Of a DNA stretch of 64,000 nt, positions 54,956 to 57,889 are shown one piece after another. The DNA comes from Micromonospora parathelypteridis (GTDB taxonomy: Bacteria > Actinomycetota > Actinomycetes > Mycobacteriales > Micromonosporaceae): positions 5,642,001 to 5,706,000 of the forward strand of contig NZ_JACHDP010000001.1 in assembly GCF_014201145.1 (NCBI RefSeq), given 5' to 3'. The notes under the pieces were generated by a model, which worked only from the letters and a program-made list of their open reading frames with translations, searched no databases and was not told the origin of the DNA. The number at the start of each line of letters is the position of its first letter. Position 1 is the first letter of the stretch. The position numbers were made by a program, and so were the translations under genes.

Positions 54956-57889
54956 GTGAGTTCAGGACCGCAGGGCGGAGACCGTCCCCGTCGTTACGAA
55001 GACCGTACTGACGGTGCGGGCGGACGCGACCGCGGCCCGCGCCGCGAAGACCGAGACCGGCCCCCGTACCGGGGAGACCGCGACAGCGGCGGCGGCGCCC
55101 GAGGTGGCTACGCAGGCGGCCGTGACTCTGCTTCCCGTGGTGGTGACCGGGACAGCTCGCGGTCCAGCGCTCCGCGTGAGGGCGGCTACCGTGGTGGCGA
55201 CCGCCGCGAGGGTGGCTTCCGCGGCGGTGACCGTGATGGTTCGCGTTCGGGCGCCCCGCGTGAGGGCGGTTTCCGTGGCGGCGACCGGGACGGTTCGCGG
55301 TCCAGCGCTCCGCGTGAGGGCGGTTTCCGTGGCGGCGACCGTGATGGTTCGCGGTCCAGCGCTCCGCGCGAGGGTGGCTTCCGTGGCGGCGACCGGGATG
55401 GTTCGCGCTCGGGCGCGCCCCGCGAGGGCGGTTTCCGTGGCGGTGACCGCCGCGAGGGTGGCTTCCGCGGCGGCGATCGTGATGGTTCGCGGTCCAGCGC
55501 TCCGCGTGAGGGCGGTTTCCGTGGCGGCGACCGGGACGGCTCGCGGTCCAGCGCTCCGCGCGACGGCGGTTTCCGTGGCGGTGACCGCCGCGAGGGTGGC
55601 TTCCGCGGCGGCGAGCGTGATGGTTCGCGCTCGGGCGCTCCGCGTGAGGGCGGTTTCCGTGGCGGCGACCGGGACGGCTCGCGCTCGGGCGCGCCCCGCG
55701 ACGGTGGCTTCCGCAGCGGTGACCGTCGTGAGGGTGGCTTCCGCGGTGGCGACCGTGAGGGTGGCTTCCGTGGTGGCGATCGTCGTGAGGGCGGTTATCA
55801 GGGTGGCGACCGTTCTCGCTCCGGCCCGTCCCGCGAGGGCGGTTTCCGTGGTGGGGACCGTGAGGGTGGCTACCGTGGCGGCGACCGTGAGGGTGGCTTC
55901 CGCGACGGATCTCGGCCTGGCGCACCGCGTGAGGGCGGCTTCCGGGGCGGCGACCGTGAGGGTGGCTTCCGCGGTGGTGACCGCCGCGAGGGTGGCTTCC
56001 GGGGCGGCGACCGGGACGGCTCGCGGTCCAGCGCTCCGCGCGAGGGCGGCTTCCGGGGCGGCGACCGGGACGGCTCGCGCTCGGGCGCTCCGCGCGACGG
56101 TGGCTTCCGTGGCGGCGACCGCCGTGAAGGCGGTTTCCGCGGTGGTGACCGCGAGGGTGGCTTCCGTGGCGGTGACCGTCGTGAGGGCGGCGCGCCTCGT
56201 GAGGGTGGCTTCCGTGGTGGTGACCGCGAGGGTGGCTTCCGTGGTGGCGACCGTCGTGAGGGTGGCTTCCGCGGTGGCGACCGTCGTGAGGGCGGTTTCC
56301 GCGGTGGTGACCGTGACGGCTCCCGGCCGAGCGGGCCGCGCGACGGCGGCGCGCCCCGTGAGGGCGGCTTCCGTGGCGGGGACCGTCGTGAGGGTGGCTT
56401 CCGCGGTGGTGACCGCGAGGGTGGCTTCCGCGGCGGCGATCGTCGTGAGGGTGGCGCGCCTCGTGAGGGTGGCTTCCGTGGTGGTGACCGTGAGGGTGGC
56501 TTCCGCGGCGGTGACCGTCGTGAGGGTGGCGCGCCTCGTGAGGGTGGCTTCCGTGGCGGTGATCGCCGCGAGGGTGGTTTCCGCGGTGGTGACCGCGACG
56601 GCTCGCGTTCGGGTGCTCCCCGCGAGGGTGGCTTCCGGGGCGGCGACCGTGAAGGTGGCTTCCGTGGTGGCGAGCGTGCGGGTGGTTTCCGGGCCGACGA
56701 GCGGCCGCGTCGCGAGGGTGAGTTCCGCCGCGACGACCGCGCTGGCGGCTCCGAGTCGTCCGGGGGCGGGCGTACCTCGGCCCCGGCGCTGCCGGACGAC
56801 ATCGTCGCGACCGATCTCGACAAGGACGTTCGCGCTGAGCTGCTCTCGCTGAACAAGCCCGTCGCCGAGACGGTGGCGCGACACCTCGTCGCGACTGGTC
56901 AGCTGATCGACGAGGACCCGGCCGAGGCCTTGGCGCACGCTTTGGCCGCCCGGCGGCTCGCGTCGCGTATCTCCGCCGTCCGTGAGGCGGTCGGTCTGGC
57001 CGCGTACCACGCGGGGGAGTGGCAGACGGCGATCGCCGAGCTGCGCACGTACCACCGGATGAGCGGGCTGCAGAGTCACCTGGCCGTCCTCGCGGACTGC
57101 GAGCGGGCTCTCGGTCGGCCGGAGCGGGCCATCGACCTGTTCCGCGGCGCCGACCGGGACAAGCTGGATCAGGCCGTCGCGATCGAGCTGCTGATCGTCG
57201 CCGCCGGCGCCCGGGGTGACCTCGGGCAGAAGGACGCCGCGGTGGCGATGCTCCAGGTCCCGGACCTGACCAGTGAGGCCACCGTGCCGTGGACGGCCCG
57301 GCTGCGTTACGCCTACGCCGACGCACTCCTGGCGGTGGGCCGGCGCGAGGAGGCCCGCGAGTGGTTCTCCCGCGCCGCCGACGTGGACACCGAGGGCGAG
57401 ACCGACGCCGCCGAGCGGCTGCTGGAACTCGACGGCGTGGTCATCGAGGGTGACGACGAGGACGAGGCCGCCGAGGAGATGGCCGCAGGCCCGGGCGTAC
57501 CCGGCGCGGTGCCGGTTCGACCGGACGCTGACTTGGCGGACGACGAAGACGACGCCGATGACGAAGACGACGACGAAGACGAAGACGACGACGACGACGG
57601 CGAAGACGACGAAGACGACGAAGACGACGAAGACGACGACGACGACGACGAAGACGACGACGAAGACCGCGAGGACGAGGACTTCGACGACGACGAGGAG
57701 GACGACGCGGTCGGCCGTCCGAACGACGACGAGGGCTTCGACGACGAGGACGAGGATCGTCACGCGGACCAGGGCGGCAACGCGGACGCGGACAGCAGCG
57801 CGGAGAGCAGCGTGACGTCCGGCGACGCGGTGAGCGCCGACGGGACCGTGCCGGCCCGGGACGACGAGTCGGGGTCGACGCAGCGGTGA
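54956..57889 (+). CDS. RGG-repeat / TPR-like / acidic-tail protein next to the rrn operon
   Basis: A 977-residue protein in three parts. Residues ~1-73 are Arg/Asp/Gly-rich. Residues ~74-580 hold about 39 GGFRGG-type units in 9- and 18-residue periods (REGGFRGGD, RDGSRSSAP). Residues ~613-850 are a helical TPR-like domain (VRAELLSLNKPVAETVARHL, AEALAHALAARRLASRI, RLRYAYADALLAVGRREEAR), comparable to the ~250-residue TPR protein found between tyrS and the HAD gene in M. tuberculosis. Residues ~858-940 are almost pure Asp/Glu. The GTG at 54956 follows AGGAAGGA; the frame upstream runs into 5S. RGG boxes usually bind RNA, so a ribosome- or RNA-related role is inferred. It overlaps the HAD gene. 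Confidence 0.85.
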   Translation: MSSGPQGGDRPRRYEDRTDGAGGRDRGPRREDRDRPPYRGDRDSGGGARGGYAGGRDSASRGGDRDSSRSSAPREGGYRGGDRREGGFRGGDRDGSRSGAPREGGFRGGDRDGSRSSAPREGGFRGGDRDGSRSSAPREGGFRGGDRDGSRSGAPREGGFRGGDRREGGFRGGDRDGSRSSAPREGGFRGGDRDGSRSSAPRDGGFRGGDRREGGFRGGERDGSRSGAPREGGFRGGDRDGSRSGAPRDGGFRSGDRREGGFRGGDREGGFRGGDRREGGYQGGDRSRSGPSREGGFRGGDREGGYRGGDREGGFRDGSRPGAPREGGFRGGDREGGFRGGDRREGGFRGGDRDGSRSSAPREGGFRGGDRDGSRSGAPRDGGFRGGDRREGGFRGGDREGGFRGGDRREGGAPREGGFRGGDREGGFRGGDRREGGFRGGDRREGGFRGGDRDGSRPSGPRDGGAPREGGFRGGDRREGGFRGGDREGGFRGGDRREGGAPREGGFRGGDREGGFRGGDRREGGAPREGGFRGGDRREGGFRGGDRDGSRSGAPREGGFRGGDREGGFRGGERAGGFRADERPRREGEFRRDDRAGGSESSGGGRTSAPALPDDIVATDLDKDVRAELLSLNKPVAETVARHLVATGQLIDEDPAEALAHALAARRLASRISAVREAVGLAAYHAGEWQTAIAELRTYHRMSGLQSHLAVLADCERALGRPERAIDLFRGADRDKLDQAVAIELLIVAAGARGDLGQKDAAVAMLQVPDLTSEATVPWTARLRYAYADALLAVGRREEAREWFSRAADVDTEGETDAAERLLELDGVVIEGDDEDEAAEEMAAGPGVPGAVPVRPDADLADDEDDADDEDDDEDEDDDDDGEDDEDDEDDEDDDDDDEDDDEDREDEDFDDDEEDDAVGRPNDDEGFDDEDEDRHADQGGNADADSSAESSVTSGDAVSADGTVPARDDESGSTQR
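55160..56700 (+). repeat. 27/54-bp coding tandem repeats of the RGG region
   Basis: Degenerate 27-bp units, often paired as 54-bp units, encode REGGFRGGD and RDGSRSxAP. Sequence variation is mostly at wobble positions (CGC/CGT, GGC/GGT), so the protein pattern is conserved more strictly than the DNA. Such arrays can change copy number by recombination. Confidence 0.85.

Follow-up and report, generated by a model that had tools for sequence, protein, structure and literature searches.

In this study, we describe a protein gene that lies directly behind an rRNA operon in Micromonospora parathelypteridis, in a window of 64,000 nucleotides (the whole stretch of DNA that was analysed; all features named below lie on its forward strand). 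The upstream neighbour of the operon is tyrS, for a tyrosine-tRNA ligase (47723..49021; NCBIfam TIGR00234, 345 bits against a cut-off of 113.8), and it is followed by the genes for 16S (49666..51180; Rfam RF00177), 23S (51562..54670; RF02541) and 5S rRNA (54755..54871; RF00001). A terminator-like hairpin without a T run, recognised by sequence, fold and covariation (54879..54916; stem CAGTCGAGGGCCG / CGGCCCTCGACTG), and a ribosome-binding site, AGGAAGG (54941..54947), 8 bases 5' of the start codon, precede a reading frame of 977 residues (54956..57889), which begins with the GTG at 54956, 84 nt from the 5S end, and stops at 57887-57889. An earlier note on this DNA had placed a 977-residue frame directly after the rRNA operon, and this was borne out. 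The stop overlaps the GTG of a HAD-IIA phosphatase gene (57886..58917; TIGR01460, 128.4 bits against 100.15) within the four bases GTGA; further downstream lie a tlyA-like rRNA methyltransferase gene (60342..61232; TIGR00478, 195.2 bits against 185.8, and below the cut-off of the narrower TlyA model NF049952, 160.7 against 250) and an NAD kinase gene (61342..62226; NF002892, 416.3 bits against 299).

This arrangement, tyrS-(rrn)-TPR-HAD-tlyA-NAD kinase, is that of the mycobacterial rrnB locus, in which the gene takes the position of Rv1691, an assignment made by position and annotation and not by alignment. A genome of the same order (L277) holds tyrS-16S-23S-5S-TPR-HAD-TlyA-NADK, and loci of that order (L119-L128, L177) are 50-59% identical to the TPR domain of the window; unlike the window's protein, the short forms examined (L119-L124) carry neither a 600-residue RGG array nor an acidic tail. 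The order lprJ-Rv1691-Rv1692-Rv1693-tlyA-ppnK-recN is given for M. tuberculosis in excerpts of one paper (PMC3072309), and Rv1691/MSMEG_3754 is annotated as a TPR-repeat protein in excerpts of another (PMC7092591). The latter excerpts report that MSMEG_3754, the M. smegmatis orthologue of Rv1691, co-purified with RNA polymerase beta, in a pull-down of 275 proteins that included metabolic enzymes, and that the tagged protein brought down no detectable DNA, the authors proposing that it may be RNA associated (PMC7092591). Among open-licence papers, no title was found on the function of this unstudied protein or on its rRNA-operon linkage.

The central 222 residues (56774..57439), a domain present in a single copy in the whole genome, are helical along their whole length in an AlphaFold2 model (mean pLDDT 96.8, pTM 0.90, 76 aligned sequences), in which 13 helices stack as antiparallel pairs in the manner of TPR proteins. 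The top structural matches in the PDB are TPR domains (five Foldseek matches with E <= 0.001), and a profile search for solved homologues returned generic and designed TPR proteins alone. All Pfam TPR models stayed below their curated cut-offs (best TPR_16, 22.8 bits against 32.7, E 1.2e-4), the repeats being divergent. No function can be deduced from the structural matches, because among those listed the generic TPR adaptors (OGT, LGN, YrrB, MamA, TTC0263) share 9 to 20% identity with the domain and none stands out. The combination of an RGG region, a TPR-like domain and an acidic tail in one protein, as proposed earlier, is real.

Arginine-rich N-terminus and acidic tail

The N-terminal 606 residues (54956..56773) contain 146 arginines and no lysine (24.1% R, 0% K, 33.7% G, 18.5% D+E, net charge +34), and the tail of 149 residues (57440..57886) is 53.7% D+E with a net charge of -74. 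Rather than forming a strongly basic arm, the N-terminus is a polyampholyte with a mild positive charge; the strongly opposite charges of the earlier note are correct as to sign but not symmetric. With 37 RGG and 35 GG[FY]RGG in 606 residues, the region has the several closely spaced RGG motifs and the aromatic residues of an RGG box, so that the repeats of the earlier note are real, but its figure of about 39 GGFRGG-type units is not. A DNA pattern for GFRGG occurs at 63 sites in the genome (50 forward, 13 reverse; 3 and 8 for a control pattern), and its density in the TPR gene is beyond chance since 33 of the 63 fall in this one gene, the remaining 30 being scattered.

An Arg-rich, Lys-poor N-terminus accompanies the TPR domain in 118 of 120 loci. 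It can be very short: a protein of 260 aa (L119) has an N-terminus of 42 aa with 26% R, and two loci outside the class (L264 and L271) have N-termini of 20-21 aa with 25-29% R. Loci of the family set (Micromonosporaceae) contain between 2 and 68 RGG each, and the acidic tail is found in 54/60 family loci versus 15/60 loci of the class set. Three proteins (P0061, P0046, P0068) are apparently frame-shifted or mis-started and were excluded as evidence of tail loss; an apparent gene loss in a complete genome of the same genus was rejected, as the corresponding stretch there consists of N. The distribution indicates that the short Arg-rich N-terminus is widespread, whereas the long RGG arrays and the acidic tails arose by expansion in particular lineages. 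Short counterparts were thus rightly anticipated (L119 is one), and the view of the basic and acidic parts as lineage additions holds for the long arrays and the tail but not for the short Arg-rich N-terminus. Frameshifts in close relatives, named beforehand as evidence against the earlier reading, tell partly against it: the array changes frame in two of the 60 family loci (L050, L052), either genuinely or through faulty assembly. As the short forms carry just 20-45 Arg-rich residues, a long RGG array cannot be essential to the function.

Across the 35 repeat units, the entropy at the three codon positions is 0.0, 0.039 and 0.954 bits; positions 1 and 2 are nearly invariant and position 3 is variable, and therefore the peptide is conserved while silent sites drift. 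Compared with the two closest relatives, the N-terminus has a dN/dS of 0.071 and 0.082; over six comparisons its values are 0.07-0.27, below those of the acidic tail (0.26-0.64). Within the array, codon usage (GGG 2%, CGG 16%) is unlike that of the remainder of the TPR gene (21% and 48%) and closer to that of EF-Tu (3% and 24%). The ratio of arginine to lysine is 7583:39 in family N-termini versus 1384:171 in the TPR domains of those loci, and class-wide 4656:148 versus 1397:266. Taken from codon and residue patterns, the repeats are constrained at the protein level.

Linkage to the rRNA operon and the intervening hairpin

In the nearer Micromonosporaceae, a 5S gene lies less than 400 nt upstream on the same strand in 57/59 testable loci, and class-wide it does so in 43/56 loci spanning 16 of 19 families. 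Outside the class, among nine loci on large contigs, 5S was found within 130 nt in five and within 2.6 kb in seven. The position behind an rRNA operon is common to most class loci examined and to several outside, and is not a lineage curiosity; relatives in the same place across many actinobacteria suggest a role near ribosomal RNA. Moreover, the linkage outlasts neighbouring genes: 18 of 56 class loci have the 5S gene and no HAD gene within 1.5 kb, with the converse in 5/56, and in eight of nine loci with no tyrS detected before 16S the TPR gene is still preceded by 5S. Adjacency is not obligatory, as the operon beside the gene has been lost in some genomes: three deep genera of the family (L164-L166) lack an rRNA operon beside it and keep the Arg-rich N-terminus, and L123 has likewise lost the operon. 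M. tuberculosis is not known to have an rRNA operon at the Rv1691 position.

The hairpin between 5S and the TPR gene is conserved by compensatory change. In 54 distinct sequences, 95.0% of cells are paired and 10 of the 16 pairs have changed on both sides, a covariation score reached by none of 500 shuffles; in all 108 loci with a 5S gene, the best hairpin after it is more than 5 kcal better than composition-only shuffles. A scan demanding a T run found no intrinsic terminator in this gap of the window, and only a minority of loci, 21/108, show the shape of a classic terminator, with at least five T within ten bases past the best hairpin. No promoter was found at 54600-55100 by a consensus scan, a method that is weak in actinobacteria, and the gap gives no support for a -10 box of the gene's own, since TANNNT boxes are no commoner there than chance (18/54 versus 18.5 expected). 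Measured as a cistron of the rRNA operon, the gene is on the same strand, at the short distance given above from 5S and free of a consensus promoter, with a terminator-like hairpin intervening. Part of its mRNA may derive from read-through, because the gene lies just past the hairpin and has no recognised promoter of its own. In 12/59 family loci, a three-codon open reading frame, ATG-TAC-CTG-TGA, overlaps the GTG start.

Possible functions of the TPR protein

Our best explanation, which we hold tentatively and would not quite call probable, is that the gene product is an old, conserved actinobacterial TPR adaptor acting on or beside nascent rRNA and expressed partly via read-through. The Arg-rich, Lys-free, disordered N-terminus would be the RNA-contacting part, by way of many weak contacts of arginine, glycine and aromatic residues, the TPR domain would bind one or more protein partners, and the acidic tail of the Micromonosporaceae forms may temper or compete for the Arg-rich part. 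Polymerases reading through the hairpin would make some of the mRNA, so that protein levels would follow rRNA output, and the protein may serve rRNA folding, processing or ribosome assembly. A role with rRNA is favoured by the 5S linkage, the preference for arginine over lysine and the selection on the repeats, and indirectly by the co-purification of MSMEG_3754 with RNA polymerase. It is weakened by the loci without an operon, the short forms, the frame breaks in L050 and L052 and the breadth of that pull-down, as well as by in-frame fusions, which link the TPR domain with a phosphatase and not with RNA. A Lys-free Arg-rich segment is shared by actinobacterial Rho, a known RNA-binding protein; that of Rho in the same genome is an Arg/Asp/Glu/Gly insertion (32.7% R, 0% K) that differs in having nearly no aromatics (0.7% F, 0% Y) and in not being of the RGG type.

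It is also conceivable, though unlikely, that selection on function has little part in the pattern, the linkage being synteny inherited at a locus that changes slowly, and the N-terminus functionless GC-rich low-complexity sequence lengthened by slippage. The whole locus is indeed conservative, as tyrS too stays upstream in 24/33 testable loci, and array length and motif vary widely among genera and the frame is broken in two loci; slippage of functionless sequence, however, does not sit well with variation concentrated at position 3, dN/dS values below those of the tail, the near exclusion of lysine from N-termini and a codon usage in the array that is closer to EF-Tu than to the rest of the gene. 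The same genes would be accounted for differently if the protein chiefly bound or positioned the HAD-IIA phosphatase, its Arg-rich part bringing that enzyme to RNA, to ribosomes or to an anionic surface, with the rRNA operon merely a long-standing neighbour. The overlap at GTGA, a HAD gene start within 1.5 kb in 55/59 family and 36/56 class loci, and two in-frame fusions, one with a 351-residue Arg-rich N-terminus (L087) and one with almost none (L177), speak for such a partnership, as do HAD Pfam domains in 26/120 homologous proteins among the matches listed, although candidates were restricted to 0.55-1.75 times the query length, which favours fusions. Automated labels of fusion were rejected because four-base overlaps also trigger them, and these two were accepted from their translations. 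We nevertheless give the partnership little credit as the main role, since the rRNA operon without a nearby HAD gene is more frequent than the converse and, beyond the class, the retrieved stretches often contain no HAD gene.

A scaffold of condensates, as the earlier note suggested, in which the Arg-rich and acidic parts would cause the protein to phase-separate with rRNA where the latter is transcribed, would draw on the repeated Arg, Phe and Gly sequence, the tail of opposite charge and a published case of phase separation by a bacterial Rho that has a disordered region (PMC13269538). We regard this as quite improbable: the acidic tail is common in the family alone, and the 20-45 disordered residues of short members are too few for a usual scaffold, so that condensation would be at most a derived trait. 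RGG repeats, an acidic stretch and a link to rRNA, here by position, are shared with nucleolin-type nucleolar proteins, a resemblance in composition and not kinship, as the window's protein has a TPR domain in the middle. In nucleolin the order of the parts is the reverse. A Pfam scan of the window's protein at E up to 1 gave TPR-type families alone and no RRM-like domain. Going further, and with a similarly low expectation of being right, one may picture an ancient extra gene of one actinobacterial rRNA operon, whose Arg-only-tailed TPR protein, made by read-through in proportion to rRNA output, would act at the polymerase as a coat or chaperone of nascent rRNA and, in families bearing long arrays and acidic tails, build a nucleolus-like compartment, the operon encoding its own assembly factor.

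If a role of the TPR adaptor on nascent rRNA holds, it would be a ribosome-related factor, conserved across a large part of a phylum that includes antibiotic producers and pathogens, that has been overlooked although its gene adjoins one of the best-studied types of operon. It would then allow a direct test of whether read-through can couple a protein gene to rRNA transcription, and of the role of Arg-only disordered tails in bacteria. Even under a different function, the linkage and the Arg-rich N-terminus make a sharp, testable pattern.

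Gene, product and distribution

In the window, the gene for the arginine-rich TPR protein (TPR gene) is a plus-strand open reading frame that begins with GTG at 54956, after AGGAAGG, stops at 57889, and starts 84 nt behind the 5S gene of an rRNA operon on the same strand (16S, 49666-51180; 23S, 51562-54670; 5S, 54755-54871). Its translation falls into an N-terminal part (residues 1-606) with 146 arginines, no lysine and 35 GG[FY]RGG units, a TPR domain (residues 607-828), and an acidic tail (residues 829-977) with 53.7% D+E and a net charge of -74. The three parts and the position after the rRNA operon, as described in the earlier note, are borne out, with the count of units lowered from about 39 to 35; the N-terminus, treated there as a basic part, has the composition of a polyampholyte with a net charge of +34 rather than that of a plainly basic arm. 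A three-codon ORF (ATG-TAC-CTG-TGA, 54948-54959) overlaps the GTG start, a pattern present in 12 of 59 loci of the family Micromonosporaceae.

The AlphaFold2 model of the TPR domain has a mean pLDDT of 96.8 and a pTM of 0.90, and the structures it matches best are TPR domains that share 9 to 20% identity with it; matches of the domain to Pfam TPR models all remained under the cut-off. As modelled, the domain is a divergent TPR solenoid, a fold that gives no functional hint. It was found in 191 of 200 family genomes, in 269 of 296 genomes of the class Actinomycetes and in 80 of 198 genomes of a phylum-wide draw, and a second search found it present in 38 of 45 re-searched genomes; one same-genus genome scored as lacking it has a stretch of N there. 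The host genome of the window is complete (7.01 Mb), and the closest named relatives in the scan, Micromonospora orduensis, M. foliorum and M. chokoriensis, share 98-99% identity over the domain. Two same-class genomes (G302 and G476) carry the gene in two copies each. Among the best 120 of 199 homologues, source names are 'tetratricopeptide repeat protein' and 'hypothetical protein', with glycerol phosphatase names for fusions; HAD Pfam domains occur in 26 of these 120, and at two fetched loci (L087 and L177) the TPR domain is fused in frame to the HAD phosphatase.

Linkage to the 5S gene and the intervening hairpin

Linkage was scored at testable loci, that is, those with enough upstream sequence, and the ORF start was set at the first in-frame start codon past 5S, so that the 5S distances given are minima and the N-terminal lengths maxima. 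Among 60 family loci, taken from the higher-scoring portion of the match list with preference for large contigs, 57 of 59 testable ones have a same-strand 5S no more than 400 nt from the ORF start (median 81); in the remaining two it lies within 1.8 kb. For the class set, another 60 loci were taken across 19 families; eight belong to deeper genera of the family that contains the window. Here 5S lies within 400 nt at 43 of 56 testable loci, with at least one such locus in 16 of the 19 families, and within 2.6 kb at six more; seven have no 5S in the fetched stretch, and the deeper genera have it within 400 nt at 4 of 8 loci. Of 80 named loci, several from genomes also present in the first set, 50 were testable: 42 have 5S within 400 nt and four more within 2.6 kb, and no 5S was found at four whose upstream sequence is short. 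In complete or long records the distance is 141 nt in Streptomyces olivoreticuli, 49 nt in Pseudonocardia kunmingensis, 28 nt in Phytohabitans suffuscus and 100 nt in Dactylosporangium vinaceum. Outside the class, a same-strand 5S stands ahead of the gene at seven of nine large-contig loci (L259-L267; five within 130 nt, the others at 968 and 2542 nt), and L259 and L261 show no rRNA in 9 kb upstream; at six loci on contigs starting near the gene (L268-L273), a biased choice, 5S is present in three, the other three having too little upstream sequence. Two complete rRNA operons stand in tandem immediately ahead of the TPR gene at L320.

At all 108 loci with 5S, the hairpin behind it is more stable than composition-only shuffles, by a margin above 5 kcal/mol. 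When 54 different sequences of the family are compared, 95.0% of cells are paired and 10 of 16 pairs have changed on both sides; no measure is matched by any of 500 shuffles, and pairing in slid versions is 27.7-52.0%. Because the other two rRNA operons of the genome end in a similar hairpin of different sequence, the likeliest role of this one is that of terminator or 3'-processing hairpin of the operon. The window hairpin has no T run, and a terminator scan of the window reports none. No promoter-like site was found at 54600-55100, and TANNNT boxes in the gap are no commoner than chance; we infer that read-through of the rRNA operon may feed the TPR gene.

Maintenance and composition of the N-terminal array

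The GFRGG DNA pattern occurs at 63 sites genome-wide, 33 of them inside the TPR gene (hand count of the site list), and codon positions 1, 2 and 3 of the 35 units give 0.0, 0.039 and 0.954 bits. Against six genus relatives, N-terminal dN/dS is 0.071, 0.082, 0.207, 0.193, 0.155 and 0.268, compared with 0.019-0.101 for the TPR domain and 0.256-0.640 for the acidic tail; these values are rough, since alignments between species may pair the wrong repeat units, inflating dS and dN alike. Array codons (GGG 2%, CGG 16%) are nearer to EF-Tu (3%, 24%) than to the remainder of the gene (21%, 48%). When relatives' arrays were checked for frameshifts, the frame changed in two of 60 family loci (L050 and L052), which may be real or an assembly error and counts against maintenance at the protein level. 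From its sequence signatures we judge that the array is translated and maintained as protein.

In both the family and the class set, 59 of the 60 loci have an Arg-rich N-terminus (at least 30 residues, at least 15% R); L052, with its truncated frame, and L177, with 17 residues, do not. The R:K ratio is 7583:39 in family and 4656:148 in class N-termini, and 1384:171 and 1397:266, respectively, in the TPR domains. The motif varies by genus (GGFRGGDR in the window, DRPYQSRDG-type in others, and KRDGDRPY, with lysine, at L175), and at least five RGG are found in 57 of 60 family versus 33 of 60 class loci, an acidic tail in 54 of 60 versus 15 of 60. The conserved property of the N-terminus is its composition. 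The insertion in Rho of the window's genome is likewise Lys-free, with 32.7% R. A gene at 59393-60034 with a weak phasin-like match has a lysine-rich KKAVAKKAVAKK repeat tail, in contrast to the Lys-free array of the same genome.

The rrnB neighborhood and the possible role of the protein

The window runs tyrS, rRNA operon, TPR gene, HAD-IIA phosphatase gene (HAD), SCP2-like (other strand), phasin-like, tlyA and NAD kinase, and L277, a locus from a genome of the same taxonomic order, reads tyrS-16S-23S-5S-TPR-HAD-TlyA-NADK. Elsewhere in the window, an FMN riboswitch (Rfam RF00050, 75.2 bits) lies at 10612-10782. In published accounts, tyrS lies upstream of the second rRNA operon in mycobacteria (PMC10218544) and Rv1691 runs on to tlyA and ppnK in M. 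tuberculosis (PMC3072309); together with the gene order, these identify the locus as rrnB with the Rv1691 position behind it. By hand count, tyrS precedes 16S in 24 of 33 loci, after rows with a masked 16S, one duplicate genome and one locus without the TPR gene were dropped. At eight of the nine loci without tyrS there, 5S is nonetheless followed by the TPR gene, and four of these eight belong to what we take to be the family of Streptomyces. The 5S-TPR adjacency is not required: the rRNA operon is missing at L295 and L297, which have tyrS upstream, and is more than 5 kb off at L296 and L298.

The HAD start overlaps the TPR stop (GTGA) in the window; among the loci compared, it falls within 1.5 kb at 55 of 59 in the family and 36 of 56 in the class, where 5S is kept without HAD in 18 and HAD without 5S in five; that the protein is a phosphatase adaptor seems unlikely. 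The tyrS and HAD counts indicate that the 5S-TPR link is at least as durable as its neighbors. About as improbable is that the linkage is inherited synteny and the Arg-rich tail functionless. The condensate scaffold proposed in the earlier note appears more doubtful still.

MSMEG_3754 of M. smegmatis, identified as the Rv1691 orthologue in the study concerned, was one of the proteins recovered with crosslinked RNA polymerase beta; the tagged protein brought down no DNA, and the authors suggest that it may be associated with RNA (PMC7092591). It is also listed in a ClpC1 interactome table (PMC10433963). The Arg-rich TPR proteins encoded behind an rRNA operon are a real, old and overlooked family; of the roles considered, one on RNA close to nascent rRNA is the most likely, a reading we hold tentatively.
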